Assembly (NCBI GenBank): GCA_947626415.1
Contig: CANQSA010000007.1
Span: 40,206-104,205, forward strand
DNA length: 64,000 nucleotides
Direction: 5' to 3'
DNA from: an uncultured Lachnospiraceae bacterium
Lineage (GTDB): Bacteria > Bacillota > Clostridia > Lachnospirales > Lachnospiraceae
Below are positions 12,336 through 41,793 of the stretch, one piece after another. The notes beneath the pieces were generated by a model that was not told the DNA's origin, did no database searches, and saw only the letters and a list, made by a program, of their open reading frames with translations. The position numbers and the translations under genes are program-made. Position 1 is the first letter of the stretch. Every line of letters begins with the position of its first letter.

Positions 12336-12393
12336 AAACTATACTTAGGTTTCTTTGATAATGAAAGAAAGATGGCATGGAGGTGCATACTGG

Positions 12394-13590: not shown

Positions 13591-13615
13591 TTTTTGAAAA
13601 GAAGGTAACAGGCAT

Positions 13616-15391: not shown

Positions 15392-15408
15392 AAAAGTGGA
15401 GAACGTAT

Positions 15409-17534: not shown

Positions 17535-17539
17535 ATCGT

Positions 17540-18565: not shown

Positions 18566-18581
18566 AAGTGAGAATCCGACT

Positions 18582-19625: not shown

Positions 19626-19641
19626 AATGCGGGAGGGTGCA

Positions 19642-26500: not shown

Positions 26501-26924
26501 TGAAGGAAAGCTCGCCAAAGGCACATATAACAATGAGCTGGTATCGGCAAACGGTGAGATCTACTTTGTGAAGTGGAGCGGCAAGGTTGCAGTCAATGAG
26601 TTAAGAGAGGTCACCGCTTCCAACAGCCATAAGCTGCTTGCAAACGGCAGTTACTACTTCGGAAAAGACGGCAAACTTACTTCTGCCACAGGCATTGTAT
26701 GGGATGAAATCACCAAACTTTATTACTACTGTAAAAACGGTAAGCTTGGCACCGGCGCATACAACAATCAGCTGGCAAAGATTAACGGTGATATTTACTT
26801 TGTAAAATGGAGCGGCAAGGTGGCTGTGAATGAGCTAAGAGAGATTACCGCTTCCAACAGCGGCGGTTTCCTGAAACCGGGCTCCTATTACTTTGGTGCA
26901 GACGGCAAACTTCAATTGGCATAA
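20580..26924 (+). CDS. Giant secreted phosphodiester glycosidase-domain repeat protein 1
   Basis: About 2114 residues. A signal peptide (residues 1-30) is followed at about 50-320 by a NAGPA-type phosphodiester glycosidase domain (PF09992) with AGINGDGYN, RSFVGVTDDNKVVFM, CLDGGGSATY and ERAVSNGL. That family removes a sugar from a sugar-phosphodiester. Next come Ig-like domains (325-495), a carbohydrate-binding-like beta sandwich (497-705), another Ig-like domain, a cohesin-like domain (825-975) and a Cys-rich segment with CTEDGYTGRTICTVC. From about 1060 the chain is aromatic-Gly repeats like choline- or glucan-binding repeats, ending with eight units containing KWSG. No sortase motif is seen, so anchoring is probably through the repeats. 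It may trim, bind or anchor the polysaccharide made by this operon. Confidence 0.85.
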   Translation: MKRNYYKKVLSMFLAVSFSAASLPAEISASETKTTAAQNTEYVSTFQTSESTLAPGITQTVNSAYGADGALINYYVAVADLDNAYVGVQATYKDAQCQTTGLSKMTEQAEAMYKKHTNSKDQTNYIANYTIVAGINGDGYNTANAMPSGAHVMNGVNGFNIKKSANSSWFAVFADGKALCGADDKDWDEAVAKHGAVKEAIGGFQLVRKNGVDIPYTESNYLNSSRYPRSFVGVTDDNKVVFMIADGSNSGGSAGTNYNESLEIMNDAGCTYILCLDGGGSATYISRQADSNDIQVTSRPSDGSERAVSNGLIMYSSAPSSDTFEKAEITAENYYVTPNSRVRISAVGVSPAGTEVKLPAGAVWTATHGKIEGNVFVSDGTTGDAKISLKADGREIGSTTIHVVYPDTVAFARDVMNVPFGAAVDLEVIAKYRLHNVAVKDGDFTFHIQNQKAGSISGNQFTAAGENANLAETTITVSVKGVSGVTDTLTVKLGKGSDVIFDFEKGTDGANLNNWKVKDHNNSMDDLCSEVSIVNKKTGMVHSGDSALAFHYKMDEEINGTKSLEGDGIAWVGKSIEVKNAVGLGFWLYVPEDCTQLAIWAGTSLHDEKGEFKKKNIYNLALYNDDSVNHMEYSGWHYFKVPITDPTVYIETNDDKAGGTALAASANAFIKIYAVNIDAEKNQETNYMGDFTFYIDDITVDYSDAVDDRENPIFSGMTYAADNMSGAKELNGQTAADNTVSFAGKVSEDMTNPANASGLNASSAAAYIDGVPVDCVYTDGLITVSDMVLTNGVHTVRMGISDKMGNYSEIKRQIVIADPKEKTPTVRVRPHDNTLDGKVQNGSVYWVDIETDAVETVKSIEMKLDLDSMNDWQPEHIETLSGFTCTYSFADVNDKAENILTVRFERNRDYLAETGTKVIASLPIRVWDYVGSAGGHKHANAVEAWNCDSPCIPALSVDVDTEKGVVTYLDNSSHTFSGADIHTRSVAYTYGEQMKVSDHAYYTAHCFHIHKTENKNKAATCTEDGYTGRTICTVCNSPVVWGTTVKATGHTFALTDSVLKCHCGQTYTGVWINGKTYVNGKLHADGWDKDDCYWKDGKKLTGIQLVENYYYNFGENGVCKGKAKYSGLLYDETVSAWRYSKLGKLFGGWVQINGGWHYFDKETKVAATGNRYWPTHDGITYRFDETGRTEGVWSKSSLGTRFWYGEWYYQARNPYQRYFVKIGGKTYNFDANGYVTPGIHALYNDWASRMREEMTLYEFDNTGALIGEVKATGLVSNKQGDWYLVEEDGFVHGGKEKCVKYQGNIYFVQNSGKLTFNNYQEITAESGKGLLKPGRYYFDQNGRLFTGEKKDKTGTYYYENGQPLTGIKKESDGSLYYYQNGQIAVGIKNKLVQINDQIYFIKTGSRAAADETIEITKNNGNGLLANGSYYFGTDGRLFTGVKKNAADGQFYYYSKGNIAKGIYNNELVSANGDIYFVKWSGKAAAGELREVTASNSHKLLTNGSYYFGKDGKLSTVTGIVWDEITKLYYYCKNGKLGTGAYNNQLAKINGDIYFVKWSGKIAVNELREITAENSSKLLSPGSYKFGADGKLLEGEKKDEDGNLRYYENGQPYTGTKKNAADGLLYYYSEGKLAKGVYNNELVSANGSIYFVKWSGKAAANELREVTASNSHKLLANGSYYFGKDGKLTSATGIVWDEITKLYYYCKNGRLGTGAYNNQLAKINGDIYFVKWSGKIAVNELREITASNSSKLLAPGSYKFGADGKLLEGEKKDEDGSLRYYENGQPLTGTKKEADGLLYYYSEGKLAKGVYNNELVSANGSIYFVKWSGKVAANEVREVTASNSHKLLANGSYYFGKDGKLISTTGLVWDETAKLYYYCKNGRLCVGEYNNQLAKINGDIYFVKWSGKVAAGEIREITAANSNKLLKPGFYEFGADGKLYQGEKKDAAGEMRYYENGQPLTGTKKEADGLLYYYSEGKLAKGTYNNELVSANGEIYFVKWSGKVAVNELREVTASNSHKLLANGSYYFGKDGKLTSATGIVWDEITKLYYYCKNGKLGTGAYNNQLAKINGDIYFVKWSGKVAVNELREITASNSGGFLKPGSYYFGADGKLQLA
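24568..26921 (+). repeat. Coding repeat array of giant protein 1
   Basis: Eight KWSG-containing units. Distances between successive KWSG codons alternate between 234 and 285-288 bases, so the true period is a two-unit block of about 520 bases (about 173 residues) present four times. Near-identical blocks suggest recent internal expansion. Confidence 0.85.
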
Positions 26925-26936
26925 AGATACCGATAT

Positions 26937-26954
26937 CCCCGCCTCCGGGTGGGG
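26937..26954 (+). other. UNCG hairpin preceding ribozyme 1
   Basis: CCCCGCC pairs with GGTGGGG around a TCCG loop, ending one base before the predicted cleavage site. No U-run follows, so it is not a normal terminator. It would become the 3' end of the upstream message after cleavage. Confidence 0.75.
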
Positions 26955-26955
26955 A

Positions 26956-27025
26956 GCCGCACGGGATCAGTACCTCCACGCGGTGTGCGGCGGGCAACAT
27001 ATAGGGATATATGGCCAAACTGATT
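26956..27025 (+). ncRNA. HDV-like self-cleaving ribozyme 1
   Basis: All parts of the double pseudoknot are visible. P1 is GCCGCAC (26956-26962) with GTGCGGC (26985-26991). P2 is GATCAGT (26965-26971) with ACTGATT (27019-27025, one G-U pair). P3 is ACC with GGT around loop TCCACGC, whose CC can form P1.1 with the GG of GGGCAAC (26992-26998). P4 is ATATA/TATAT with a GGGA loop. The joining strand after P4 is GGCCAAA, placing the catalytic C at 27015 and the conserved AA after it. The loop and GGGCAAC nearly match the viral ribozyme. Predicted cleavage is between 26955 and 26956. Confidence 0.9.
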
Positions 27026-27053
27026 AAAAAATAAAAATGTTAAGGAGGAAAAA

Positions 27054-30000
27054 ATGAAGAACAATCTTTTTTCGAAAGTGATTTCCATGATTCTGATTGT
27101 GTCTTTCGGGGTGGTTTCTATACCCGCAGAAACCTTTGCGTCAGAAAATGGAGTCGAAGCGACGCAGGAGAAAGAATACGTTTCAACGTTTCAGTCGTTT
27201 GAATCGACGCTTGCGCCCGGTATTACACAGACTATCAGCAGCGGATACGGTGCTGACGGCAAGAGGATCAACTATTATGTTGCAGTAGCTGATCTTAGTA
27301 ACGAAAATGTAGGCGTTCAGACGTCTTATAAGGATGCGCAGTGCGAGACGCCCGGTCTGTCTAAGATGACGGATCAGGCAGCTGCTATGAACAAAAAGCA
27401 TACAGATGAGTCGGATCAGACTAATTATATTAAGAATTACGCAGTAGTGGCCGGCATAAACGGCGGCGCATTTAATACCGGCAGCGGAATGCCTGCCGGC
27501 GCGCATGTGATGAACGGCGTAATCGGATTTAATAAACAAAAATCAGACGGACACCCATGGTTTGCGATCTTTAATGATGGAACGGCACTATGCGGAGAAA
27601 ATGACACTGACTGGGATCAGGCAGTTACGGCGCATCAGGGTGTAAAAGAGGCAATCGGCGGCTTCCAGTTGGTGAAAAAGAACGGTACGGATATTTCGTA
27701 TCAACCGAACAGCTATCTGAATAATGGCCGCTATTCCCGCTGCTTTGTAGGTGTTACAGCGGAAAATAAAGTTGTATTTATGGTAGTGGACGGCAGCAAC
27801 GCCGGCGGCTCCGTTGGCGCGAATTACGAAGAATCGCTTGAGATCATGAATGATGCAGGCTGCACCTATATCCTGTGTCTGGACGGCGGCGGATCCGCGA
27901 CTTACATATCCCGCCCGGCCGGCAGCAATAGCATCCAGGTAACGAGCCATCCTTCCGACGGTTCGGAGCGTACTGTATCAAACGGTCTTGTCATGTATAC
28001 GACTACGCCGCCTTCCGACCAGTTTGAAACGGCAGAAGTCAGCGCGGAAACCTACTATGTAACACCGAATTCCAGTGTTCAGCTTTCTGCTGTCGGCGTC
28101 AGCTCGGCGGGAACCGCGGCAAAGATTCCTGAGGATGCCAAATGGACCACCACACTTGGATCGGTTACGGAGAACGGCGTATTTGTTTCCGGAGAAACAA
28201 CCGGGGAGGCTAAAATCTCACTTACAGTAGATGGCAAAGAAGTGGGATCGACCACGATCCACGTTGTATATCCGGATAAACTTGCATTTACCCGGGAAGC
28301 GATTACCGTTCCGTTTAATGCTACGATAACCCTGGATATTACTGCTAAGTACGGGCTGAATGATGTAACGTTAAAAGATGACGACATACTTTTTACTGTC
28401 AAAGATCAGGAGGTAGGTACGATTTCCGGGAATCAATTTACTGCCGCTGCGGAAGGCGTGAGCAAAACGGAAACGACTATTACCGCTGCGGTTAAGCAGG
28501 CGGAGGATCCTGCTGAGGCTACTGTTCAGGTCAAGTTAGGCAAGGGGTCTGATGTTATTTTTGATTTCGAAGAAGGGAGCAAAGGCGCAGATATCAATAA
28601 CTGGAAAGCAGGGGACTATGATAACACTGATACCTACGTTCATTCGGAAGTTTCTATCGTAAACAAGGAAACAGGCATGGTTCACAGCGGTGATTCTGCG
28701 CTGGCTTTTCATTATAAGATGGATGAAGGAATTCATGGCACCGATATGTGGAGCGGCAACGGAATCATTTGGGAAGGGGATTCCATCGAGTTGGAAAAAC
28801 CGACCAGCTGGGGCTTCTGGCTTTGGGTTCCCGAGGATTGTACGCAGCTGGCCATATGGGCCGGTACATCCCTTCATGATGAAAACGGGGAGTTTGTAAA
28901 GAAGCTGGGCTACAATTTTATGCTTTACAACGATGAACAGGTTCTTGAGGAGAATAACAAACGAACCGATCGTTGGCATTATACGAATAATCAGGAATAT
29001 TCCGGCTGGCACTATATCAAGATCCCTATTAAAGAATCGGATTTTACAATTTCTGATGAAAAAACGGCAAAAAATGCCATATATTTTGAAAGCAATGATG
29101 ACAAAGTAGATGGCAATACCTTCAAATCAAAAGCAAATGGTTTCATTAAGATTTATTGCGCAAATGTTGATTCCTGGAAGAAAAATGAAACCAACTATAT
29201 GGGTGATTTCACCTTTTACATCGATGATATTACGGTAGACTATTCGGACGCTGTTAATGACAGGGAAAATCCGATTTTTTCCGATATGACCTATGCGGTG
29301 GAAGGAATGAGCGACGCGCAGTCGCTGAACGGACAGACGGTTCAGTACAATACGGTTGACTTTGCGAGCCTGGTTGCTGAGGATATGATTGATCCGAACA
29401 ATGCCAGCGGCCTCGATGAATCTTCCGCAGTCGCGTATATCGACGGCGTTTCCGTTGACTGTACGTACGCAGACGGACTGATTACGGTTTCCAACGCGGT
29501 TCTGACCGATGGCGTGCATACGATCCGGATGGGCATCAGCGATAAAGCGGGAAACTATGCGGAAACCAAGCGCCAGATCACCGTTAACACCGGGAAAAAA
29601 GAACCTTCAGTCCGCGTGCGTCCGCAGGATAATACGCTTGACTGCAAAGTCCAGAACGACTCGGTTTACTGGGTAGATGTTGAGGCTGACGCAGTTGAAA
29701 CTGTCAAGTCGATTGAGATGAAACTGGATCTTGACAGCATGAACAACTGGGACTGGGATGTTGAGGCGAAGAAGCCTGACCATATCAAGACACTTTACGG
29801 CTTTGACTGCGAGACTTTCTTCGAGACTGCAAATGACAAGGCGGAGAACATCCTTACTCTGCGCCTCACCCGGAATGGCGATTATCTTTCCGCGTCCGGG
29901 ACGCAGGTGATCGCAAGCCTTCCCATCCGTGTATGGGATTATGTGAGCAGTGCAGATGAAAATCATAAAGATGCGGTGGAAGCCTGGAATTGTGCTGCCG

Positions 30001-33000
30001 AAGGAAAAGGTGAATCCTGTATTACCGCACTTTCGGTCGATGTAGATACCGAGAAGGGTGTAGTGACCTATCAGGATGACAGCAGTCATACTTTTTCCAG
30101 TGCGGATATCCATACACGTAGTGTTGCCTATACTTACGGTGTGCGTATGAAGGCAGAGAGTACTGGCGGTGAAGGTCAGGAGGCTATCAATCCGAATTAT
30201 ATCAGTACGCATTGCTTCCATAACCATGATGCCAAGGCAATTGCTGATAAGGAGCCAACCTGTACAGAAGACGGTTATACCGGCAGGACGGTGTGTACCA
30301 TCTGTAATTCTCCGGTAGAGTGGGGAACGACTGTCAAGGCAACCGGTCATACCTTTGCGATTACCGACGGCATCCTGAAATGTGATTGCGGGCAGACCTA
30401 TACCGGCGTCTGGACAGACGGCAGAACCTACGCGGAAGGCATTCCGCACGAAGACGGCTGGGATGAAGACGACTGCTATTGGAAAGACGGCAGGAAGCTG
30501 ACCGGCATACAGCTTGTGGAAAACTACTATTATGACTTTGGCGAGGATGGCATCTGCAAGGGCAAAACTAAGTACAGCGGACTGCTTTATGATGAATCGA
30601 AATCCGCATGGCGTTACAGTAAGGTCGGCGAGCTGTTCGGCGGCTGGGTTCAGCTGGATGACGGCTGGCACTACTTTGACAAGGATACAAAAGTTGCAGC
30701 AACGGGAGACCGTTACTGGCCGACTCACGATCAGATCACCTATCACTTCGATGAGACCGGCAGGACAGAAGGCGTCTGGAATACGAACAGCCAGGGAACG
30801 AGGTTCTGGTATGGCGAATGGTATTATCAGGCAAGAAATCCGTACCAGTTATTTTTAGCCGAGGTCAACGGTAAAACGTATAACTTCGATGCGGACGGCT
30901 ATGTAACGACCGGAATCCATGCATTGTATGACAACTGGTCCGCTATGATGAGAGGGGAAATGAACCTCTATGAATTCGATAACGACGGCGCCCTGGTCGG
31001 TGAAGTAAAAGAGACAGGACTGGTCAGCAACAAGCGCGGCGGCTGGTACCTGGTCGAAGAAGACGGGTTCGTGCATGGCGGAAAGGAAAAATGTGTCAAG
31101 TATCAGAATCAAGTCTATTTCGTCCAAAACAGCGGAAAGCTGAAGGTAAACGGTTATCAGGAGATCACCGCGGAAACCGGAAAGGATCTGCTGGCGCCCG
31201 GAAGCTATTACTTCGGTAAGGACGGTACACTCTTTACCGGAGAGAAGACAGATACGACCGGTACTTACTACTATGAAAACGGTCAGCTGTTTACCGGCAT
31301 GAAGGAAGGCGGAGACGGCAGCCTGTACTATTATAAGAACGGCCAGCCTGCAGCAGACATAAAGAACCGGCTGGTCCAAGTAGACGGCCAGATCTACTTC
31401 CTGAAGGAAGGCGGCAGGACTGCCGCAGATGAAACCGTTGCGATCACTGCGGAGAACGGCAGCGATCTGCTTCCGGCAGATTCCTATTACTTTGGCGCAG
31501 ACGGCAGACTGTTTAACGGCGAGAAGAAGGATGCAGACGGAATGCCGGTCTTCTATCAGGACGGCAAACCCGGCAATGCGATCTATAACAACGAACTGGT
31601 CCGGGTAGACGGCGATATCTACTTTGTAAAGTGGAGCGGCAAGGCCGCAGTCAACGAGATCAGGGAAGTGACTGCAGACAATAGCAACGGCCTGCTTGCA
31701 AACGGCTCTTATTACTTTGGAGCAGACGGAAAGCTCTCTAAAGTTACCGGCGTTGTCTGGGATGAAAAGACACAGCTTTACTATTACTGCAAGGACGGCA
31801 AGTTAGGAACCGGACTTTATAACAGCGCATTGGCCGAGATCAACGGTTCGGTTTATCTGGTAAAATGGAGCGGCAAGGTTGCAGCCAACGAGACCCGAGA
31901 GATCACAGAGGCCAACAGCAATGATCTGTTAAAACCCGGATCTTATGATTTCGGTGCAGACGGAAAATTGTATCAGGGTGAGAAGACAGATGAGGAAGGG
32001 AATTCCCTTTACTGCGAAAACGGTCAGCCGTTTACCGGCGTAAAGAAGAACGAGGCCGACGGTCTGCTGTATTATTACAAGGAAGGCAAGATCGGCAACG
32101 CTCTGTACAATAACGAACTGGTTTCGGTCAATGGAGATATCTATTTTGTGAAGTGGAGCGGCAAGGTCGCAGTCAACGAACTGAAAGAGATCACGGTTTA
32201 TAACAATAACAAGCTGCTTGCGAATGGTTCCTACTACTTTGGGGAAGACGGAAAGATCTCTGATCTTACCGGCATCATCTGGGATGAAAAGACGCAGCTT
32301 CCGTACTACTGCAAAGATGGTAAGCTGGGTACCGGACTCTATAACAGCGCGTTAGCAGAGATCAATGGTTCCGTTTATCTGGTAAAATGGAGCGGCAAGG
32401 TTGCAGCCAATGAGACCAGAGAGATTACAGACGCCAACAGCAACAAGCTGCTTGCGAATGGTTCCTATTACTTTGGAGAAGACGGTAAACTGTACCAGGG
32501 CGAAAAGACCGATGAAGAAGGGAATCCGGTTTACTGTGAAAACGGTCAGCCGTTTACCGGCGTGAAAAAAGAGGCTGACGGATTGCTGTATTATTACGAA
32601 AACGGAAAACTTGCCAAGGGCGTATATAACAACGAGTTGGTATCGGCAAACGGAGAGATTTATTTCGTGAAGTGGAGCGGCAAGGTCGCAGTCAATGAAC
32701 TGCGGGAGATCACGTTTTATAACAATAGCAACCTGCTCGCAAACGGCTCTTATTACTTTGGAGCAGACGGTAAGCTTTCAAAAGATACCGGTATAGTAAA
32801 AGATACGATCACACAGCTTTCCTATTACTGCAAAGACGGTAAGCTGGGAACCGGACTCTATAACAGCGCGTTAGCCAAGATCAACGGTTCTGTTTATCTG
32901 GTAAAATGGAGCGGCAAGGTTGCGGCAAACGAGACCAGAGAGATCACAGCCGCAAACAGCAACAAACTGCTTGCGAATGGTTCCTATTACTTTGGAGAAG

Positions 33001-33542
33001 ACGGCAAGCTGTACCAGGGCGAGAAGACGGATGAGGCAGGCGATCTGCTTTATTATGAAAACGGCCAGCCGTTTAGCGGCGCGAAGAAAGAGGCCGACGG
33101 CTTGCTGTATTATTACGAAAACGGGAAACTTGCCAAGGGCGTGTATAACAATGAACTGGTATCGGCAAACGGAGAGATCTATTTCGTGAAGTGGAGCGGC
33201 AAGGTCGCAGTCAATGAACTGAAAGAGATCACGGTTTATAACAATAATAAACTGCTTGCGAACGGCAGCTACTACTTTGGGGAAGACGGAAAGCTTTCTG
33301 ACGCTACCGGCATTGTATGGGATGAGATCGCCCGCCTTCCGTATTACTGCAAGGACGGTAAGCTGGGCACGGGCGCATATAACAATCAGCTGGCAAAGAT
33401 CGGCGATACGATTTATTTTATCAAATGGAGCGGCAAGGTTGCGGCGAATGAGACCATAACGGTCACAGCTGCCAACAGCAATAACCTGCTTGATTTCGGT
33501 ACTTATTACTTTGGAGCAGATGGAAAACTGCAGTTAGCATAA
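27054..33542 (+). CDS. Giant secreted phosphodiester glycosidase-domain repeat protein 2
   Basis: 2162 residues, paralog of the preceding giant protein with the same domain order. A signal peptide (about residues 1-30) is followed by the glycosidase domain (AGINGGAFN, RCFVGVTAENKVVFM, CLDGGGSATY), Ig-like domains, the beta sandwich beginning VIFDFEEG, the cohesin-like domain, the Cys-rich segment and aromatic-Gly repeats with eight KWSG units. The beta sandwich is longer than in protein 1. It starts 28 bases after ribozyme 1 with AAGGAGG upstream, so it would be the first gene on the cleaved downstream RNA. The nucleotide sequence around 30480-30850 is almost identical to giant gene 3, suggesting gene conversion. 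Confidence 0.85.
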   Translation: MKNNLFSKVISMILIVSFGVVSIPAETFASENGVEATQEKEYVSTFQSFESTLAPGITQTISSGYGADGKRINYYVAVADLSNENVGVQTSYKDAQCETPGLSKMTDQAAAMNKKHTDESDQTNYIKNYAVVAGINGGAFNTGSGMPAGAHVMNGVIGFNKQKSDGHPWFAIFNDGTALCGENDTDWDQAVTAHQGVKEAIGGFQLVKKNGTDISYQPNSYLNNGRYSRCFVGVTAENKVVFMVVDGSNAGGSVGANYEESLEIMNDAGCTYILCLDGGGSATYISRPAGSNSIQVTSHPSDGSERTVSNGLVMYTTTPPSDQFETAEVSAETYYVTPNSSVQLSAVGVSSAGTAAKIPEDAKWTTTLGSVTENGVFVSGETTGEAKISLTVDGKEVGSTTIHVVYPDKLAFTREAITVPFNATITLDITAKYGLNDVTLKDDDILFTVKDQEVGTISGNQFTAAAEGVSKTETTITAAVKQAEDPAEATVQVKLGKGSDVIFDFEEGSKGADINNWKAGDYDNTDTYVHSEVSIVNKETGMVHSGDSALAFHYKMDEGIHGTDMWSGNGIIWEGDSIELEKPTSWGFWLWVPEDCTQLAIWAGTSLHDENGEFVKKLGYNFMLYNDEQVLEENNKRTDRWHYTNNQEYSGWHYIKIPIKESDFTISDEKTAKNAIYFESNDDKVDGNTFKSKANGFIKIYCANVDSWKKNETNYMGDFTFYIDDITVDYSDAVNDRENPIFSDMTYAVEGMSDAQSLNGQTVQYNTVDFASLVAEDMIDPNNASGLDESSAVAYIDGVSVDCTYADGLITVSNAVLTDGVHTIRMGISDKAGNYAETKRQITVNTGKKEPSVRVRPQDNTLDCKVQNDSVYWVDVEADAVETVKSIEMKLDLDSMNNWDWDVEAKKPDHIKTLYGFDCETFFETANDKAENILTLRLTRNGDYLSASGTQVIASLPIRVWDYVSSADENHKDAVEAWNCAAEGKGESCITALSVDVDTEKGVVTYQDDSSHTFSSADIHTRSVAYTYGVRMKAESTGGEGQEAINPNYISTHCFHNHDAKAIADKEPTCTEDGYTGRTVCTICNSPVEWGTTVKATGHTFAITDGILKCDCGQTYTGVWTDGRTYAEGIPHEDGWDEDDCYWKDGRKLTGIQLVENYYYDFGEDGICKGKTKYSGLLYDESKSAWRYSKVGELFGGWVQLDDGWHYFDKDTKVAATGDRYWPTHDQITYHFDETGRTEGVWNTNSQGTRFWYGEWYYQARNPYQLFLAEVNGKTYNFDADGYVTTGIHALYDNWSAMMRGEMNLYEFDNDGALVGEVKETGLVSNKRGGWYLVEEDGFVHGGKEKCVKYQNQVYFVQNSGKLKVNGYQEITAETGKDLLAPGSYYFGKDGTLFTGEKTDTTGTYYYENGQLFTGMKEGGDGSLYYYKNGQPAADIKNRLVQVDGQIYFLKEGGRTAADETVAITAENGSDLLPADSYYFGADGRLFNGEKKDADGMPVFYQDGKPGNAIYNNELVRVDGDIYFVKWSGKAAVNEIREVTADNSNGLLANGSYYFGADGKLSKVTGVVWDEKTQLYYYCKDGKLGTGLYNSALAEINGSVYLVKWSGKVAANETREITEANSNDLLKPGSYDFGADGKLYQGEKTDEEGNSLYCENGQPFTGVKKNEADGLLYYYKEGKIGNALYNNELVSVNGDIYFVKWSGKVAVNELKEITVYNNNKLLANGSYYFGEDGKISDLTGIIWDEKTQLPYYCKDGKLGTGLYNSALAEINGSVYLVKWSGKVAANETREITDANSNKLLANGSYYFGEDGKLYQGEKTDEEGNPVYCENGQPFTGVKKEADGLLYYYENGKLAKGVYNNELVSANGEIYFVKWSGKVAVNELREITFYNNSNLLANGSYYFGADGKLSKDTGIVKDTITQLSYYCKDGKLGTGLYNSALAKINGSVYLVKWSGKVAANETREITAANSNKLLANGSYYFGEDGKLYQGEKTDEAGDLLYYENGQPFSGAKKEADGLLYYYENGKLAKGVYNNELVSANGEIYFVKWSGKVAVNELKEITVYNNNKLLANGSYYFGEDGKLSDATGIVWDEIARLPYYCKDGKLGTGAYNNQLAKIGDTIYFIKWSGKVAANETITVTAANSNNLLDFGTYYFGADGKLQLA
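31186..33539 (+). repeat. Coding repeat array of giant protein 2
   Basis: Eight KWSG units. The intervals checked alternate between 234 and 285-288 bases, the same register as in giant gene 1. Confidence 0.82.
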
Positions 33543-33554
33543 AGATACCGATAT

Positions 33555-33572
33555 CCCCGCCTTCGGGTGGGG
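33555..33572 (+). other. UUCG hairpin preceding ribozyme 2
   Basis: CCCCGCC and GGTGGGG close a TTCG loop one base before the cleavage site. Copy 1 has TCCG in the same place, so the stable UNCG loop class is kept despite the base change. Confidence 0.75.
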
Positions 33573-33573
33573 A

Positions 33574-33644
33574 GCCGTACAGGGATCAGTACCTCCACGC
33601 GGTGTGCGGCGGGCAACATATAGGGATATATGGCCAAACTGATC
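33574..33644 (+). ncRNA. HDV-like self-cleaving ribozyme 2
   Basis: P1 is GCCGTAC (33574-33580) with GTGCGGC (33604-33610); the T replaces the C of copy 1 and keeps a U-G pair. P2 is GATCAGT (33584-33590) with ACTGATC (33638-33644), fully paired. P3 is ACC/GGT around TCCACGC, J1.1/4 is GGGCAAC (33611-33617), P4 is ATATA/TATAT with GGGA, and the catalytic C is 33634. Predicted cleavage lies between 33573 and 33574. Confidence 0.9.
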
Positions 33645-33669
33645 AAAAAAATGTTAAGGAGGAAAAAAG

Positions 33670-36600
33670 ATGAAGCATAAGGTTTTTTCAAGAGCAGTTT
33701 CCATGTTTCTGGTCGCAGCGTTTTCTGTGGTTTCCTCTCCGGCAGAGATGTTGGCGTCAGAAACCGTCCGGGGGGGGGTAGAATACGTTTCAACGTTTCA
33801 GTCGTTTGAATCAACGCTCGCGCCCGGTATCACACAGAGCGTCTGCAGCGGTTATGGTACAGACGGCAAACGGATCAACTATTATGTTGCAGTAGCTGAT
33901 CTTAGTAACGAACATGTAGGCGTTCAGGCATCCTATAAGGATGCGCAGTGCGAGACGCCCGGTCTGTCTAAGATGACGGATCAGGCGGCAGCCATGAATA
34001 AAAAGCATACCGATCCGGCAGACAAAGAGAATTATATTGAGAATTACGCTGTTGTAGCCGGTGTAAACGGCGGCGCATTTGATACTACCAGCGGAATGCC
34101 TTCCGGTGCGCATGTGATGAATGGCGAATTCGGATTTAGAAAACAAAAGGCCGATGGACGCCCCTGGTTTGCAATCTTTAATGATGGAACGGCACTATGC
34201 GGGAAAAATAATGAAGACTGGGATCAGGCAGTTAAGGACCATGATGGTGTAAAAGAGGCGATCGGCGGTTTCCAGTTAGTCAGAGAGAATGGTCAGGATA
34301 TCGGATATACTTCTGACAGCTATCTGAACGATGGCCGTTATAGCCGCTGCTTTGTGGGTGTTACAGCGAAAAATGAAGTTGTATTTATGGTAGTGGACGG
34401 CAGCAACGCCGGCGGCTCCGCTGGCGCAAATTACAAAGAATCGCTTGAGATCATGGACGACGCGGGCTGCACCTATATCCTGTGCCTGGACGGCGGCGGT
34501 TCCGCGACTTACATATCCCGTCCTGCCGGCAGCAATGATATTCAGGTTACCAACCGCCCTTCTGACGGTTCGGAGCGTACCGTGTCAAACGGCCTTGTCA
34601 TGTATACGACTACGCCGCCTTCCGACCAGTTTGAAACGGCAGAAGTCAGCGCGGAAACCTACTATGTAACACCGAATTCCAGTGTTCAGCTTTCTGCTGT
34701 CGGCGTCAGCCCGGCAGGGACCGCTGCGGAGATTCCTGAGGATGCCAAATGGACCGCTACACTTGGATCGGTTACGGACGAAGGATTATTTGTTTCCAAT
34801 GGAGAGACAGGAGACGCTGAAATATCGCTGATGGTTGGCGAAAAAGTAGTCGGTTCGACCACAATCCATGTTGTGTATCCCAAAACAGTTGCATTTGCAC
34901 GGGATGAGATGACGGTTCCCTTTGGCGCCACCGTTAGCCTGGAGGCAGCTGCCAAATATGACTTAAATGATGTAACGCTGAAAGATGATGATTTGCTCTT
35001 TACTGTTACAGATGAAGAGGTAGGTAAAATCTCCGGCAATCAGTTTACCGCCGCGGAGGAAGGTACCCAAAAAACGGAAACAACGATTACCGTATCCGTA
35101 AACGGTGTTTCCAATGTGACTGATACGCTTAAGGTTAAACTGGGTAAGGGATCTGAGGTAATCTTTGATTTTGAAGACGGAACAGAAAGTGCAGACCTGG
35201 AAAATTGGGAAGTAAGAGATTACAATCAAAATAATAGAGAAGAAGCAGGAAATAAGACAGATTGGATTCATTCCGATATTTCTATTGTAAACCGTGAGAC
35301 AGGAGAAGTGCATGACGGCGATTCTGCTCTTGCCTTTCATTACCGGATGGACGAGGGAATCCACAGTACGGAAGATTGGGGCGGCAATTCAATCACTTGG
35401 GTCAGCGATCCGATTGAAATAGAGGATGCTACCGGTTTAGGATTCTGGCTTTGGATTCCGGAAGACTGTACACAGTTAGCTTTATTTGTAGGGACTTCCT
35501 TACATGATGAAGAGGGAAACTGGAGCGGCAGAGCCAATAAAAATTTTATGCTTTATAACGATGATCAGGTCCAGGCTGAAAATGATTTACGAACGGATAA
35601 CTGGCACTATGTGAACAATCAGGAGTATTCCGGCTGGCATTATATTAAGATGCCTATTACAAATGAAAAAGTTTACATTGAGGACAATACGGACAAGATA
35701 GGGCAGGAGTATAACGGCTCTAAATTCAAAGATAAAGCGAATTGCTTTATAAAAGTCTATATGGTAAATATTGATTCCTGGCAAGAAGAGGAAACCGATT
35801 ATCTGGGTGATTTTACTTTCTATATTGATAATGTCACTGTCGATTATTCCGATGCAGTAGATGACCGGGATGCTCCCATTTTTTCCAAAATGACTTATGC
35901 AGAGGAAGGAATGGGTGAGGCACAGCCGCTGAATGGTCAGACAGTTACGCACAATACGATTGATTTTGCAGGGTATGTTGCCGAAGATATGATTGATCCG
36001 AACAATGCCAGCGGCCTCGATGTGTCGTCCGCAGTTACGTATATTGACGGTGTTTCCGTTGACTGTACATACGCAGATGAACTGATTACGGTTTCCAACG
36101 CGGTTCTGACCGATGGCGTGCACACAATCCGTATGGGCATGCAGGATAAAGAAGGCAACTATTCTGAAATCAAGCGTCAGATCACTGTAAACACCGGGCA
36201 GGCGGAACCGACGGTCCGTGTTCAGCCGCATGACAGCTCGCTGGAGAAAAAAGTTCAAAATGACCAGGTTTACTGGGTAGACGTTGAAGCTGACGCGGTT
36301 GAAACCGTACAGTCGATCGAGATGAAACTGGACCTTGACAGCATGAACAACTGGGACTGGGATGTTGAGGCGGAGAAGCCTGACCATATCAAGACGCTTT
36401 ACGGGTTTGACTGCGAGACTTTCTTCGAGACTGCAAATGATAAGGCGGAGAACATCCTTACCCTGCGCTTCACCCGGAATGGTGATTATCTTTCCGCGTC
36501 CGGAACCCAGACGATCGCAAGTCTTCCGATCCGTGTATGGGATTATGTGGGCAGTGACAGTCAGGATGGAGCAAAACATCCGAATCACAAAGATGCAGTA

Positions 36601-39600
36601 GAGGCATGGAAGTGCAGTAGTGAGACTCCTTGTATCCCCGCACTTTCGGTTGATGTAGATACCGAAAAGGGTGTGGTGACCTATCTGGATGACAGCAGCC
36701 ATACATTTTCCAGCGCGGATATCCATACGCTTAGCGTTGCTTATACGTATGGTAGGCGTATGATAGAAGAAGATAAAAATTATTATGAAAACCATTGTTT
36801 CCATACTCATGAGACTGAAGAAGTTGAAGATAAGGAGCCAACCTGTACGGAAGACGGTTATACCGACAGGACCTGGTGCGAGACTTGTAACTCTCCTGTA
36901 GATTGGGGTACTACAGTTCCGGCAACCGGACATACCTTTACGATTACCGAAGGTACCCTGAAATGCAGCGATTGCGGGCAGACTTACACCGGCGTCTGGA
37001 CAGACGGCAGAACTTATGCGGACGGTATTCCGCACGCAGACGGCTGGGATGAAGACGACTGCTATTGGAAAGACGGCAAGAAGCTGACCGGCATACAGCT
37101 TGTGGAATACTACTATTATGACTTTGGCGAGGATGGCATCTGCAAGGGCAAAACTAAGTACAGCGGACTGCTTTATGATGAATCGAAATCCGCATGGCGT
37201 TACAGTAAGGTCGGCGAGCTGTTCGGCGGCTGGGTTCAGCTGGATGACGGCTGGCACTACTTTGACAAGGATACAAAAGTTGCAGCAACGGGAGACCGTT
37301 ACTGGCCGACTCACGATCAGATCACCTATCACTTCGATGAGACCGGCAGGACAGAAGGCGTCTGGAACACGAACAGCCAGGGAACGAGGTTCTGGTATGG
37401 CGAATGGTATTATCAGGCAAGAAATCCGTACCAGCTATTTTTAGCCGAGATCAACGGTAAAACGTATAACTTCGATGCGGACGGCTATGTAACGACAGGA
37501 ATTCATGCATTGTATGACAACTGGTCCGCTATGATGAGAGGGGAAATGAACCTCTATGAATTCGATAACGACGGCGCTCTGGTCGGTGAAGTGGAAGCGA
37601 CAGGACTGGTCAGCAACAAGCGCGGCGGCTGGTACCTGGTCGAAGAAGACGGGTTCGTGCATGGCGGTGCGGAAAAATGTGTTAAGTATCAGGATCACGT
37701 CTATTTCGTCCAGAACAGCGGAAAACTGAAAGTAAACGGTTATCAGGAGATCACCGCGGAAACCGGGAAGGATCTGCTGGCGCCGGGAAGCTATTACTTC
37801 GGTAAGGACGGTACACTCTTTACCGGAGAGAAGACAGATACGACAGGTACTTACTACTATGAAAACGGTCAGCTGTTTACCGGCATGAAGGAAGGCAGCA
37901 ACGGCAGCCTGTACTATTATAAGAACGGCCAGCCTGCTGCAGACATAAAGAACCAGCTGATCAAAGCAGACAATCAGATCTATTTCCTGAAGGAAGGCGG
38001 CAGAACTGCCGCAGATGAAACCATTGCGATCACTGCGGAGAACAGCAACGATCTGCTTCCGGCAGATTCCTATTACTTTGGAGCAGACGGCAGACTGTTT
38101 AGCGGCGAGAAGAAGGATGCGGATGGGATTCCGGTTTTCTATCAGGACGGAAAGCCCGGCAATGCGATCTATAACAACGAACTGGTCCGGGTAGACGGCG
38201 ATATCTACTTTGTAAAGTGGAGCGGCAAGGTCGCAGTCAATGAACTGCGGGAGATCACATATTACAACAGCAATGGCCTGCTTAAGGACGGCTCTTATTA
38301 CTTTGGCGCAGACGGAAAGCTCTCTAAGGTTACCGGCGTTGTCTGGGATGAGAAGACGCAGCTTTACTACTACTGCAAGGACGGTAAGTTAGGAACCGGA
38401 CTCTATAACAGCGCATTGGCCGAGATCAACGGTTCTGTTTATCTGGTGAAATGGAGCGGCAAGGTTGCAGCCAACGAGACCAGAGAAATCACAGAGGCAA
38501 ACAGTAACGGTCTGTTAAAACCCGGATCTTATGATTTCGGTGCAGACGGAAAATTGTATCAGGGTGAGAAGACAGATGAGGAAGGGAATTCCCTTTACTG
38601 CGAAAATGGTCAGCCGTTTACCGGCGTAAAGAAGAATGAGGCTGACGGTCTGCTGTATTATTACAGCGAAGGCAAGATCGGCAATGCGATCTATAACAAC
38701 GAACTGGTATCGGCAGACGGCGCGGTCTATTTCGTGAAGTGGAGCGGCAAGGTTGCAGTCGACGAACTGCGAGAAATCACAGCCTATAATAATAACAAGC
38801 TGCTTGCGAATGGTTCCTACTACTTTGGGGAAGACGGAAAGCTCTCTGATTTTACCGGCATCATCTGGGATGAAAAGACACAGCTTCCGTATTACTGCAA
38901 AGACGGTAAGCTGGGGATCGGTGCTTACAACAGTCAGCTTGCCAAGGTTGGAAATGATATTTACTTTATCAAATGGAGCGGCAAGGTTGCAGCCAATGAG
39001 ACCAGAGAGATCACAGACGCTAACAGCAACAAATTGCTGAAGCCAGGCTTTTATGAGTTTGGTGCAGATGGCAAACTGTACCAGGGTGAAAAGACGGATG
39101 AAGAAGGAAATTCACTTTATTATGAAAACGGGCAGCCGTTTACCGGTGTGAAAAAGAATGAAGCCGATGGCCTCCTGTATTATTACAGCGAAGGCAAGAT
39201 CGGCAGTGCTTTGTACAATAACGAACTGGTATCCGTCAATGGAGATATCTATTTCGTGAAGTGGAGCGGCAAGGTTGCAGTCAATGAACTGCGGGAGATC
39301 ACATTTTATAACAATAACAACCTGCTCGCGAACGGTTCTTATTACTTTGGAGCAGACGGTAAGCTTTCAAAGGCTACCGGCGTAGTAAAAGACACGCTCA
39401 CACAGCTTTCCTATTACTGCAAAGACGGTAAGCTGGGAACCGGATTCTATAACAGCGCGTTAGCCGAGATCAACGGTTCTGTTTATCTGGTAAAATGGAG
39501 CGGCAAAGTTGCAGCTAACGAGACCAGAGAGATCACATCCGCCAACAGCAATAAGCTGTTAAAGCCCGGATCTTATGAGTTCGGCGCGGACGGCAAGCTG

Positions 39601-40131
39601 TATCAGGGTGAGAAGACAGATGAGGCAGGCGATCTGCTTTATTATGAAAACGGCCAGCCGTTTAGCGGCGCGAAGAAAGAGGCCGACGGATTGCTGTATT
39701 ATTACGAAAACGGGAAACTTGCCAAGGGCGTGTATAACAATGAACTGGTATCGGCAAACGGAGAGATCTATTTCGTGAAGTGGAGCGGCAAGGTTGCAGT
39801 CAATGAACTGAAAGAGATCACTGTTTTCAACAGCAATAAACTGCTTGCGAACGGCAGCTACTACTTTGGAGCAGACGGAAAGCTCTCTAAGATTACCGGC
39901 GTTGTATGGGATGAAATCGCCCATCTTCCGTATTACTGCAAGGACGGTAAGCTGGGAACCGGTGCATACAACAATCAGCTGGCAAAGATCGGCGATACGA
40001 TTTACTTTATAAAATGGAGCGGCAAGGTTGCGGCGAATGAGACCATAACGGTTACAGCTGCCAACAGCAATAACCTGCTTGATTTCGGTACTTATTACTT
40101 TGGAGCAGACGGAAAACTGCAGTTAGCATAA
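33670..40131 (+). CDS. Giant secreted phosphodiester glycosidase-domain repeat protein 3, with G9 tract
   Basis: 2153 residues, the third paralog in tandem, with the same order: signal peptide (about 1-30), glycosidase domain (AGVNGGAFD, RCFVGVTAKNEVVFM, CLDGGGSATY), Ig-like domains, beta sandwich, cohesin-like domain, Cys-rich segment (CTEDGYTDRTWCETC) and aromatic-Gly repeats with eight KWSG units. Unlike copies 1 and 2, the codons just after the signal peptide contain nine G (33770-33778). Eight G would give TAG at once, and ten would give a stop about ten codons later, so only G9 allows expression. Ribozyme 2 ends 25 bases upstream and ribozyme 3 follows the stop. Probably a phase-variable surface protein. 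Confidence 0.85.
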   Translation: MKHKVFSRAVSMFLVAAFSVVSSPAEMLASETVRGGVEYVSTFQSFESTLAPGITQSVCSGYGTDGKRINYYVAVADLSNEHVGVQASYKDAQCETPGLSKMTDQAAAMNKKHTDPADKENYIENYAVVAGVNGGAFDTTSGMPSGAHVMNGEFGFRKQKADGRPWFAIFNDGTALCGKNNEDWDQAVKDHDGVKEAIGGFQLVRENGQDIGYTSDSYLNDGRYSRCFVGVTAKNEVVFMVVDGSNAGGSAGANYKESLEIMDDAGCTYILCLDGGGSATYISRPAGSNDIQVTNRPSDGSERTVSNGLVMYTTTPPSDQFETAEVSAETYYVTPNSSVQLSAVGVSPAGTAAEIPEDAKWTATLGSVTDEGLFVSNGETGDAEISLMVGEKVVGSTTIHVVYPKTVAFARDEMTVPFGATVSLEAAAKYDLNDVTLKDDDLLFTVTDEEVGKISGNQFTAAEEGTQKTETTITVSVNGVSNVTDTLKVKLGKGSEVIFDFEDGTESADLENWEVRDYNQNNREEAGNKTDWIHSDISIVNRETGEVHDGDSALAFHYRMDEGIHSTEDWGGNSITWVSDPIEIEDATGLGFWLWIPEDCTQLALFVGTSLHDEEGNWSGRANKNFMLYNDDQVQAENDLRTDNWHYVNNQEYSGWHYIKMPITNEKVYIEDNTDKIGQEYNGSKFKDKANCFIKVYMVNIDSWQEEETDYLGDFTFYIDNVTVDYSDAVDDRDAPIFSKMTYAEEGMGEAQPLNGQTVTHNTIDFAGYVAEDMIDPNNASGLDVSSAVTYIDGVSVDCTYADELITVSNAVLTDGVHTIRMGMQDKEGNYSEIKRQITVNTGQAEPTVRVQPHDSSLEKKVQNDQVYWVDVEADAVETVQSIEMKLDLDSMNNWDWDVEAEKPDHIKTLYGFDCETFFETANDKAENILTLRFTRNGDYLSASGTQTIASLPIRVWDYVGSDSQDGAKHPNHKDAVEAWKCSSETPCIPALSVDVDTEKGVVTYLDDSSHTFSSADIHTLSVAYTYGRRMIEEDKNYYENHCFHTHETEEVEDKEPTCTEDGYTDRTWCETCNSPVDWGTTVPATGHTFTITEGTLKCSDCGQTYTGVWTDGRTYADGIPHADGWDEDDCYWKDGKKLTGIQLVEYYYYDFGEDGICKGKTKYSGLLYDESKSAWRYSKVGELFGGWVQLDDGWHYFDKDTKVAATGDRYWPTHDQITYHFDETGRTEGVWNTNSQGTRFWYGEWYYQARNPYQLFLAEINGKTYNFDADGYVTTGIHALYDNWSAMMRGEMNLYEFDNDGALVGEVEATGLVSNKRGGWYLVEEDGFVHGGAEKCVKYQDHVYFVQNSGKLKVNGYQEITAETGKDLLAPGSYYFGKDGTLFTGEKTDTTGTYYYENGQLFTGMKEGSNGSLYYYKNGQPAADIKNQLIKADNQIYFLKEGGRTAADETIAITAENSNDLLPADSYYFGADGRLFSGEKKDADGIPVFYQDGKPGNAIYNNELVRVDGDIYFVKWSGKVAVNELREITYYNSNGLLKDGSYYFGADGKLSKVTGVVWDEKTQLYYYCKDGKLGTGLYNSALAEINGSVYLVKWSGKVAANETREITEANSNGLLKPGSYDFGADGKLYQGEKTDEEGNSLYCENGQPFTGVKKNEADGLLYYYSEGKIGNAIYNNELVSADGAVYFVKWSGKVAVDELREITAYNNNKLLANGSYYFGEDGKLSDFTGIIWDEKTQLPYYCKDGKLGIGAYNSQLAKVGNDIYFIKWSGKVAANETREITDANSNKLLKPGFYEFGADGKLYQGEKTDEEGNSLYYENGQPFTGVKKNEADGLLYYYSEGKIGSALYNNELVSVNGDIYFVKWSGKVAVNELREITFYNNNNLLANGSYYFGADGKLSKATGVVKDTLTQLSYYCKDGKLGTGFYNSALAEINGSVYLVKWSGKVAANETREITSANSNKLLKPGSYEFGADGKLYQGEKTDEAGDLLYYENGQPFSGAKKEADGLLYYYENGKLAKGVYNNELVSANGEIYFVKWSGKVAVNELKEITVFNSNKLLANGSYYFGADGKLSKITGVVWDEIAHLPYYCKDGKLGTGAYNNQLAKIGDTIYFIKWSGKVAANETITVTAANSNNLLDFGTYYFGADGKLQLA
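33770..33778 (+). repeat. G9 tract after the signal peptide of giant protein 3
   Basis: Nine G, followed by TA as in the other two tracts, at codons 34-37. The two sister genes have no G-run at this place. Confidence 0.85.
37780..40128 (+). repeat. Coding repeat array of giant protein 3
   Basis: Eight KWSG units of the same type as in the sister genes. The last unit and the following 3' flank are nearly identical to those of giant gene 2. Confidence 0.82.
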
Positions 40132-40143
40132 AGATACCGATAT

Positions 40144-40161
40144 CCCCGCCTTCGGGTGGGG
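40144..40161 (+). other. UUCG hairpin preceding ribozyme 3
   Basis: The same CCCCGCC/GGTGGGG stem with a TTCG loop, one base before the predicted cleavage site. Confidence 0.75.
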
Positions 40162-40162
40162 A

Positions 40163-40234
40163 GCCGTACAGGGATCAGTACCTCCACGCGGTGTGCGGCG
40201 GGCAACATATAGAAGATATATGGCCAAACTGATC
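40163..40234 (+). ncRNA. HDV-like self-cleaving ribozyme 3
   Basis: P1 is GCCGTAC (40163-40169) with GTGCGGC (40193-40199). P2 is GATCAGT (40173-40179) with ACTGATC (40228-40234). P3 is ACC/GGT around TCCACGC, J1.1/4 is GGGCAAC (40200-40206) and the catalytic C is 40224. P4 keeps ATATA/TATAT but its loop is GAAGA instead of GGGA, so variation is confined to the loop. Predicted cleavage lies between 40162 and 40163, releasing the flippase message downstream. Confidence 0.9.
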
Positions 40235-40275
40235 AGAAAAATAAAGATCGGCAGGGTTCGGAAATCGGAGGGGCT

Positions 40276-41793
40276 ATGGAATCATCCAGGCGAAAGCGGC
40301 TAAAGTTCAATACAGTCAGTTCGTTACTGCTGCAGATCACAACCATCATATGCGGGCTGATCCTGCCGCGTCTGATCATGGAAAACTTTGGAACCGAAGT
40401 CAACGGACTGCTTAATTCCATTATGCAGTTTCTCCAGGTTATCACATTTCTGGATCTGGGGGTAGGCGCTGTAGTGCAGTCTTCCCTGTATGGACCGCTG
40501 GCGCATCGGGATACTGAGGAGACAAGTAAGATCATACGGTCTGCGGGAAAGTTCTTTAAAAGGATCGCGCTGATCTTATTGGCGTATATGCTGATTCTTG
40601 CGGCAGTCTACCCGTTTATTCTGAATCAGGATTTTGACAGCCTTTATACGGCGGCGCTGATTCTGATCATCGGGATCAGTTCATTTGCGCAGTATTATTT
40701 CGGTATGGTTGACGGTCTGCTGCTTCAGGCTGATCAGCGGGGCTATGTACAATACACGGCACAGATCGCTACGCTGATCCTGAATACCGGAGCCTGCGTA
40801 TTGCTGATCAAACTGGGAATGTCGATCCATCTGGTAAAACTTGCCACCTCGGTTATTTATCTGTTCCGCCCGTGTTTTCTTCGATTTTATGTCAATCGCC
40901 ATTATAAATTGGATCGGCGCATTTCCTATACAGGCGAACCGATCCGGCAAAAATGGAACGGGATCGCGCAGCATGTGGCTTCTACGGTTCTGGAGCAGAC
41001 AGACGTTATCGTCCTGACGGCGTTTTCGACTTTGGCGAATGTTTCCATTTACTCGGTCTATCATATGGTTATCTATGGGGTAAAAAATCTGTTTATTTCC
41101 ATGACGAACGGGTTTCGTTCTCTGATGGGGGAAATGCTGGCTAAGGAAGAAACCGAAGAACTCAACCGATTTTTTCGGTGGATGGAATGGCTTTTGCATA
41201 CGGGGACAGTGTTTATCTTTGGCTGTATCAGTGTTTTGATCGTTCCCTTTGTTGCGGTATATACCAAAAATGTGACGGATGCGGATTATACAGTCCCCGC
41301 ATTTGCGCTGCTGATCACGCTGGCACACGCCGGACATTGTCTCAGACTGCCCTATAACAGTCTGATCCTGGCGGCGGGACATTATAAACAGACGCAGCGC
41401 AATTACATAGTGGCGGCGCTGATCAATATTGTAATTTCTGTTTTGAGTGTCCGCACATGGGGGTTGATCGGCGTGGCGATCGGAACGCTGTGCGCCATGT
41501 TTTACCAGACGGTCTGGATGGCGATATATGATGCGAAAAATATTATTCCGAGATCCATGATTGAATTTATCAAGCATATGGCTGTAGATACCGTCAGTTT
41601 TTTCCTGGCGTTTCTGATTACTTTTCATTTGCCGTTAGGAGAGGTGAGTTATCTCTCCTGGATCAAACTTTCGATTTTAGTTGTCCTGATATGGTTTGTC
41701 GTTATAGCGGCGGTAAATTATATTGCCTATAGGGAGTATGAGGTTCGGGCAGCGCGTTATATTGCAAATCTGCTGCGGGCAAAACGGTCATAA
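40276..41793 (+). CDS. Wzx-like polysaccharide repeat-unit flippase
   Basis: 505 residues with about 12-14 hydrophobic segments of the MOP exporter type. The N-terminal half contains LILPRLIMENFGTEVNGLLNSI, typical of oligosaccharide flippases. It should move the undecaprenyl-linked repeat unit to the outer face of the membrane, where the EpsG-like protein polymerises it. GGAGGGG lies just before ATG 40276. It follows ribozyme 3 by about 40 bases, so it would be translated from the cleaved downstream RNA. Its distance of more than 20 kb from the polymerase gene shows that the giant genes were inserted into the middle of a normal Wzx/Wzy cluster. Confidence 0.88.
   Translation: MESSRRKRLKFNTVSSLLLQITTIICGLILPRLIMENFGTEVNGLLNSIMQFLQVITFLDLGVGAVVQSSLYGPLAHRDTEETSKIIRSAGKFFKRIALILLAYMLILAAVYPFILNQDFDSLYTAALILIIGISSFAQYYFGMVDGLLLQADQRGYVQYTAQIATLILNTGACVLLIKLGMSIHLVKLATSVIYLFRPCFLRFYVNRHYKLDRRISYTGEPIRQKWNGIAQHVASTVLEQTDVIVLTAFSTLANVSIYSVYHMVIYGVKNLFISMTNGFRSLMGEMLAKEETEELNRFFRWMEWLLHTGTVFIFGCISVLIVPFVAVYTKNVTDADYTVPAFALLITLAHAGHCLRLPYNSLILAAGHYKQTQRNYIVAALINIVISVLSVRTWGLIGVAIGTLCAMFYQTVWMAIYDAKNIIPRSMIEFIKHMAVDTVSFFLAFLITFHLPLGEVSYLSWIKLSILVVLIWFVVIAAVNYIAYREYEVRAARYIANLLRAKRS

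Follow-up and report, generated by a model that had tools for sequence, protein, structure and literature searches.

HDV-like ribozymes behind a conserved hairpin at the boundaries of giant surface-protein genes in an uncultured Lachnospiraceae bacterium

Few functions have been assigned to the ribozymes of bacteria and phages that resemble the hepatitis delta virus (HDV) ribozyme, two that have been put forward being a metabolite response in Faecalibacterium prausnitzii (PMC10919898) and the processing of phage tRNAs (PMC10879173). The latter proposal refers to the theta ribozymes of gut phages, which are HDV-like RNAs located directly downstream of tRNAs and are proposed to make their 3' ends. 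The present analysis deals with three HDV-like ribozymes, each directly preceded by a stable hairpin, in a stretch of 64,000 nucleotides (nt) from an uncultured Lachnospiraceae bacterium (assembly GCA_947626415.1, contig CANQSA010000007.1, positions 40,206 to 104,205), referred to here as the window, where each ribozyme follows one of three tandem genes that encode giant surface proteins.

The window copies share their fold and conserved strands with the Faecalibacterium ribozyme of the Rfam family RF02682 (HDV-F-prausnitzii), from which both the window's kind of ribozyme (class I, below) and a second group (class II) differ in the letters of L3, P1.1 and J1.1-4. The RF02682 example adjoins glmM, whereas the ribozymes of the window and of class II follow surface-protein or pilin genes, and those of the window have as neighbours the genes of giant surface proteins and, after the last copy, of a likely flippase. 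The likeness to the theta ribozymes lies in the position of an HDV-like ribozyme directly after a structured RNA, but these are described as a subgroup of minimal forms that lack P4 and are found in phages beside tRNAs, whereas the window copies possess P4 and follow a hairpin and a surface-protein gene. No tRNA gene was found in the window. The transcript of the pap pilin operon of Escherichia coli is cut before the pilin gene, with a stabilising stem-loop. The glmS ribozyme of Bacillus subtilis has another fold and uses a cofactor, and is located in the leader of a single gene, whereas the window copies lie behind a hairpin in the interval between coding regions. Like them, glmS is a self-cleaving RNA by type, leaving a 5'-hydroxyl product that is degraded by RNase J1, and in the cggR operon, a structure beside the cut stabilises the cleavage product, setting the stoichiometry of the operon (PMC11780869). 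The cleavage and hairpin that set unequal output at the cggR-gapA boundary resemble the arrangement in the window, but are the work of a protein endonuclease, whereas the window RNA is predicted to cut itself.

The three ribozymes are located where the original prediction had placed them, and are matched there by two covariance models, RF02682 and R1, the latter made in this work from 66 sequences that include the genome's own four copies.

26956..27025, plus strand: HDV-like ribozyme 1, predicted cleavage 26955/26956, catalytic C 27015 (RF02682 and R1)
33574..33644, plus strand: HDV-like ribozyme 2, predicted cleavage 33573/33574, catalytic C 33634 (RF02682 and R1)
40163..40234, plus strand: HDV-like ribozyme 3, predicted cleavage 40162/40163, catalytic C 40224 (RF02682 and R1)

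In the Rfam covariance search that had been proposed as a check, RF02682 matched copy 1 at 26956-27027 (48.5 bits, E 6.9e-6 over the window), copy 2 at 33574-33646 (41.7 bits, E 1e-4), and copy 3 at 40163-40236 (41.9 bits, E 9e-5). The curated cut-off of this model is 44 bits, which is exceeded by copy 1 alone, copies 2 and 3 being slightly under it, and the score of copy 1 with RF00094 was 29.9 bits, against a cut-off of 50. The R1 scores were 68.7, 61.9, and 62.5 bits for copies 1, 2, and 3, at the coordinates first proposed. The following parts of the double pseudoknot could be read again in the sequence of the three copies: P1 of 7 base pairs (bp), P2 of 7 bp, P3 of 3 bp, P1.1 of 2 bp, P4 of 6 bp, the GGGCAAC strand, and the active-site C after P4. 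The pairing-preserving differences reported between copies, from C-G to U-G in P1 and from G-U to G-C in P2, are also real. A chance origin is very unlikely, given that RF02682 found no match in 14 control genomes, and that copies 1 and 2 agree at 99 of 103 positions of hairpin and ribozyme, versus 222 of 300 in the adjoining gene ends. The window ribozymes add new members to a known family. One other R1 match, on the minus strand at 4330-4394 (18 bits, E 0.018), was taken as chance.

Each of the three copies is preceded by a hairpin that reaches up to the cleavage site and had not been part of the earlier description.

26937..26955, plus strand: hairpin 1, stem CCCCGCC-UCCG-GGUGGGG and a final A that pairs with U26936, -14.7 kcal/mol when folded with the 5' flank
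33555..33573, plus strand: hairpin 2, CCCCGCC-UUCG-GGUGGGG and A, -14.7 kcal/mol
40144..40162, plus strand: hairpin 3, CCCCGCC-UUCG-GGUGGGG and A, -14.7 kcal/mol

In each case, the 19 bases before the cut and one additional U form a stem of 8 bp with a UNCG loop, the final base of the hairpin is that preceding the predicted cut, and the sequence GCCG follows directly.

Relatives were collected by scanning genomes and viral contigs with a degenerate pattern, which produced at least 122 matches, and the counts given here describe this sample, rather than a census. Nine matches in other phyla were discarded on inspection by eye, because P1 at its normal spacing, P4 or P2 did not convince (one of these, L073, has P1 at 7/7 with a 25-nt spacer), and L106 was dropped because it is cut at the end of its locus, leaving 112 ribozymes, or 116 with the four copies of the genome itself; some of the rows are near-copies (L032/L038, L121/L130). 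In alignment A7, composed of 66 of the 93 distinct core sequences of up to 80 nt, picked by eye for spread, 99.3% of the P1, P3, P1.1, and P4 cells are paired, and 179 cells are changed on both sides, in comparison with 46.9 in shuffles, with three of five measures of covariation exceeding all 500 shuffles. P2 was kept out of this count because the alignment sets it in differing registers, and the parser recognised a P2 of 4 bp or more in 116/116 ribozymes. The catalytic C is also present in all 116, partly by construction, given that the parser required a C in the motif. In class I, both P1.1 pairs are C-G, in class II, they are U-A and C-G, and in class III, C-G and U-A; either position can hold C-G or U-A, with exceptions to pairing in 0/66 sequences. 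This agreement of the two sides was not imposed by the pattern, which accepted either pyrimidine and either purine, or by the class labels, which rest on one side of the helix.

Enough upstream sequence was available for 115 ribozymes, four from the genome itself and 111 from the survey (that of L051 is insufficient). Of these, 105 have a hairpin with a free energy (dG) of -10 kcal/mol or below that ends within 6 nt of the cut, compared with 409/2300 dinucleotide shuffles, 282/2169 random places in the same loci, and 8/115 places located 50 nt further upstream. This count keeps as misses three loci (L045, L058, L108) whose short hairpins, among the ten misses, reach -9.4 when folded in context. 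By class, the threshold was reached in 27/31 (I), 41/41 (II), and 37/43 (III) ribozymes, and in 107/620, 253/820, and 49/860 of the respective shuffles. In the distinct hairpins of dG -8 or below, pairing of the six outermost pairs amounts to 99.4, 98.8, and 97.5% in the three classes, whereas swapping the 3' strands among sequences leaves means of 63.3, 53.6, and 49.2%, figures that are biased towards pairing by the selection of hairpins for stability, a bias from which the shuffle control is free. The predicted hairpin varies in sequence across relatives, then, with its pairing kept. The base preceding the cut is G in 0/116 ribozymes.

Fold and hairpin pairing are conserved with compensatory changes, and both are placed between co-directional genes, here and in relatives. 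In the window, the genes on either side of each ribozyme run in the same direction and belong to a single polysaccharide and surface locus, with the following composition.

12355..20583, plus strand: polysaccharide genes before the array (ATP-grasp, three glycosyltransferases, acyltransferase, EpsG, TupA-like ATP-grasp)
20580..26924, plus strand: giant surface-protein gene 1, PF09992 NAGPA domain and wall-binding-type repeats
27054..33542, plus strand: giant surface-protein gene 2, NAGPA and wall-binding-type repeats
33670..40131, plus strand: giant surface-protein gene 3, NAGPA and wall-binding-type repeats
40276..41793, plus strand: gene after ribozyme 3, likely polysaccharide flippase, named from its look and place

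The listed open reading frame of giant gene 1 begins at GTG 20535, but a start at ATG 20580, before a signal-like sequence, is the likelier. The protein of 40276..41793 has no Pfam or NCBIfam match of its own. The spacers after the giant genes are each 127-144 nt long, and a simple consensus scan of the three found no sigma-70-like promoter or terminator-like site.

It is probable that hairpin and ribozyme act together to split a shared transcript, each giant message ending in a hairpin and the surface protein being made in excess. One transcript would span the locus, and the three ribozymes would cleave it in the cell, leaving an upstream message that would end in the hairpin with a 2',3'-cyclic phosphate, and a downstream message that would start with a 5'-hydroxyl and the ribozyme fold. 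The hairpin would shield the upstream message from 3' exonucleases, and would also prevent the misfolding of the ribozyme with upstream sequence, while the 5'-hydroxyl message would be shorter-lived through decay of the RNase J type, for which the genome contains two matches (RMMBL). The outcome would be an excess of the structural surface protein over the enzyme or transporter encoded next. The steps of message stability and unequal output lean on the glmS and cggR precedents. The processing of a single polysaccharide-operon transcript, as put forward in the original prediction, is partly supported by the placement of the ribozymes, the co-directional genes, the spacers in which the consensus scan found no promoter-like or terminator-like site, the comparable gene boundaries in relatives, and a second serial arrangement on a goat-cecum contig (below), but this support is tempered by the look of tandem duplication in the set and by a giant pair that lacks an inner ribozyme (below).

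Going by the survey, these ribozymes more commonly lie where the gene of a bulk surface protein meets that of an enzyme or transporter than as punctuation of tandem families. The relatives comprise 27 class I ribozymes (besides the genome's own four), 41 of class II, and 44 of class III, and proteins encoded beside them were scanned with Pfam. The predicted pilin/sortase boundary of class II is the clearest case, with SpaA and the LPXTG anchor each found in 39/40 upstream proteins, the pilin backbone in 28/40, and sortase in 38/39 downstream proteins. The only class II locus submitted to NCBIfam (L112) encodes a SpaH/EbpB major pilin and a class C sortase, and in this locus, as in L137, a larger LPXTG protein precedes the pilin, while the sole ribozyme match follows the pilin. 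The upstream proteins of class I have a C-terminal wall-binding-type repeat in 23/27 cases, as read by eye (two of them degenerate), the commonest choline-binding model of Pfam scoring in 8/27, and glycosyltransferases are encoded downstream in about 14/26, in two families of seven members each, with flippase-type proteins in 3/26. Within the window, this rule is most apparent at ribozyme 3, between giant protein 3 and the likely flippase, and the inner two ribozymes may have come along by tandem duplication. A tentative extension would make the hairpin and HDV-like ribozyme a general protein-free maker of mRNA 3' ends in gut Clostridia, fixing the ratio of bulk surface polymers, such as pilins and giant wall proteins, to the enzymes of their assembly. 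Ribozymes have been used to split synthetic operons, of which such a system would be a natural counterpart.

The hairpin-ribozyme module, with its recurring placement at gene boundaries, above all between pilin and sortase, appears to be new, and a search of the open-access literature, which mostly leaves subscription journals uncovered, found no report linking ribozymes of this kind with pilins, sortases or the splitting of operons. All seven class II loci tested fall below the RF02682 cut-off, whereas the three class I loci tested besides the window pass it, which suggests that the present Rfam threshold misses the whole of class II. If the proposed role is correct, class II would count as a kind of ribozyme with a clear role in its hosts, unnoticed because this cut-off excludes it. 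The recurring place and the co-conserved hairpin make the question of function experimentally simple, and suggest a putative shared way of giving neighbouring genes different output, common to the window and other gut bacteria.

A number of observations weigh against this interpretation. The genome (2.54 Mb in 46 contigs) contains a second giant pair of NAGPA type on contig C2 (L027, about 10141-18001, minus strand), with open frames of 2206 and 1954 aa separated by a gap of 4 nt, in which no ribozyme is found between the members, the only one following the second, and the tandem set of the window looks to be, at least in part, a duplication of gene and ribozyme together. The distribution is also narrow, given that RF02682 matches were found in just 16/397 genomes of the family, and a sister species has no RF02682 match, with the giant gene represented only by a weak match in a 388-aa frame. 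In addition, a ribozyme is present in only two of 30 sortase loci taken from a sample of 120 genomes not chosen by ribozymes, 47 of which have sortase matches, which implies that pili manage without it. The neighbours of class III are mixed, a poor fit to the rule of surface protein and enzyme, the hairpin scored weaker than -8 kcal/mol in 6/115 ribozymes, although three of the six reach -9.4 in context, and two of the five covariation measures, the pairs with two-sided change and the further pair types, do not exceed the shuffles. With stricter filters for both models, the R1 search reached the same 16 family genomes as RF02682, and no wider, while an order-level sample, which overlaps that of the family, had ribozymes in 9/392 genomes. 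In a tree of sortases, 37 of the 39 ribozyme-bearing sequences (two short ones being omitted) and the ribozyme-less L190 form one group, with support of 99/98, and the ribozyme state changes twice, versus 21.4 times in shuffles; a single gain at the sortase is possible, in rows that were selected for having a ribozyme.

The HDV ribozyme has an upstream hairpin, P(-1), that speeds folding, and the hairpins seen here may likewise serve folding alone, insulating the ribozyme with no protection of the message. The position of the hairpins of dG -8 or below, which end 0-6 nt from the cut (6 nt being the limit of the search), fits this explanation, but hairpins are also found where no ribozyme is present. 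In 18 ribozyme-less pilin/sortase spacers (the L179-L208 set, from which both ribozyme loci were excluded), a dG of -10 was reached in 17/18, as against 69/180 shuffles, and of -15 in 14/18, as against 23/180, with 17/18 surpassing all ten of their own shuffles. These strong hairpins indicate that the structure is likely to be useful at that boundary in its own right, possibly as a separate processing or stabilising element, and a T-rich stretch followed the hairpin in two of the 20 spacers first measured. The median of -21.2 kcal/mol in class II also seems, as a matter of judgement, to be beyond the needs of insulation. A role in folding alone is unlikely.

Another explanation is that the ribozyme was copied along with the giant gene, and cleaves without purpose at the inner two boundaries. 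The products of the giant genes are 69-84% identical to each other, copies 2 and 3 are nearly identical (279/300 at the gene ends, 102/104 in the hairpin-ribozyme stretch), and the C2 pair without an inner ribozyme points the same way. The gene ends of copies 1 and 2 differ by 26%, however, and their RNA by only 4%, in differences that keep the pairing, which needs selection or a recent homogenisation of the RNA alone; copies 1 and 3 are identical at 226/300 and 98/104 positions, respectively, and the RNA of the array appears to have been either held by selection or homogenised apart from the genes. Hairpin and fold are also kept over large divergence. In a Clostridia metagenome-assembled genome (MAG) from goat colon (L103), a homologue of giant gene 3, with 57% identity over the aligned part (BLASTP), is followed by a hairpin, a class I ribozyme, and a homologue (55%) of the protein of 40276..41793, and in comparison with the window, P2, P3, P4, and the entire hairpin are altered, yet paired, with A-C as the first P1 pair. 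Ribozymes in series with giant genes, moreover, are not unique to the window, given the existence of a goat-cecum contig (JAFQDF010000033.1, in the adjacent, unjoined loci L045 and L058), where about 7.8 kb separate two class I ribozymes and giant open frames precede the first and lie in the interval. Of the latter, the one behind the first ribozyme has a NAGPA domain and reaches the end of its locus, and one of 1022 aa stops before the second ribozyme, followed by a glycosyltransferase-like frame. The serial set had been called unusual, and while the window does have one ribozyme per giant gene, this contig shows that the arrangement recurs. On balance, ribozymes as mere passengers of duplication would be rather improbable.

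A fourth copy of the ribozyme, missing from the original prediction, is located on C2 (RF02682 51.2 bits), preceded by a 1947-aa protein with a NAGPA domain and followed by a glycosyltransferase gene, and has a hairpin of different sequence at the same place before the cut.

The ribozymes may, alternatively, be switches of the downstream gene, cleaving at a rate set by a nucleotide sugar or sugar phosphate, as has been put forward for the F. prausnitzii ribozyme beside glmM. Many class I and III neighbours make glycans, and phosphoglucosamine-mutase (PGM) type proteins lie downstream in 6/30 class III cases, one of them glmM by NCBIfam, which fits the known F. prausnitzii case; none were found in the downstream Pfam tables of class I or II. 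The class III protein sets, once repeats were removed, comprised 39 of 41 upstream and 30 of 31 downstream proteins, and apart from the PGM type and VanZ-like proteins upstream (10/39), the neighbours are varied. Spacers of 127-144 nt leave scant room for an aptamer, which was sought by Rfam only, and the pilin and sortase of class II suggest no obvious metabolite, which makes control by a ligand quite unlikely.

It is far less probable that hairpin and following sequence form a terminator or attenuator, with an incidental resemblance to a ribozyme. GC-rich hairpins soon after stop codons would agree with this idea, as would the opposite strand of the C2 copy, which reads as a hairpin and U-run, but no U-run follows the three window hairpins on the coding strand, no terminator-like site was found in the spacers by the scan, and the ribozyme fold covaries. 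The C2 hairpin itself (L001, about 1560-1620) has an A-run on its 5' side, and it is on this account that its opposite strand resembles an intrinsic terminator.

Circular mRNAs formed from messages 2 and 3 are scarcely credible, given that two cleavages would provide the 5'-hydroxyl and 2',3'-cyclic phosphate ends, but the genome has no match to the RtcB ligase (PF01139), for which the same search was positive in 9/14 control genomes.

A mobile or plasmid origin of the window copies was considered and rejected, the first hairpin-ribozyme stretch (111 nt) being unmatched in a plasmid collection, and the class I pattern being found in 0 viral contigs. Class III ribozymes, by contrast, occur in two viral contigs (L144, L145) and two unannotated human-gut phage records (MT835848, MT836086), and their mobility is possible on this evidence. 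The VanZ-like genes that precede class III ribozymes have near-identical tails in several species (L075, L084, L092, L099, L101, and others), and a second upstream tail, ...YKADLFADL, recurs in L030, L039, L076, and L128. Class III, with its VanZ-like or YKADLFADL tails, looks like a spreading cassette. In four loci (L031, L054, L055, L094), paired class III ribozymes are found 0.3-2.6 kb apart on one contig.

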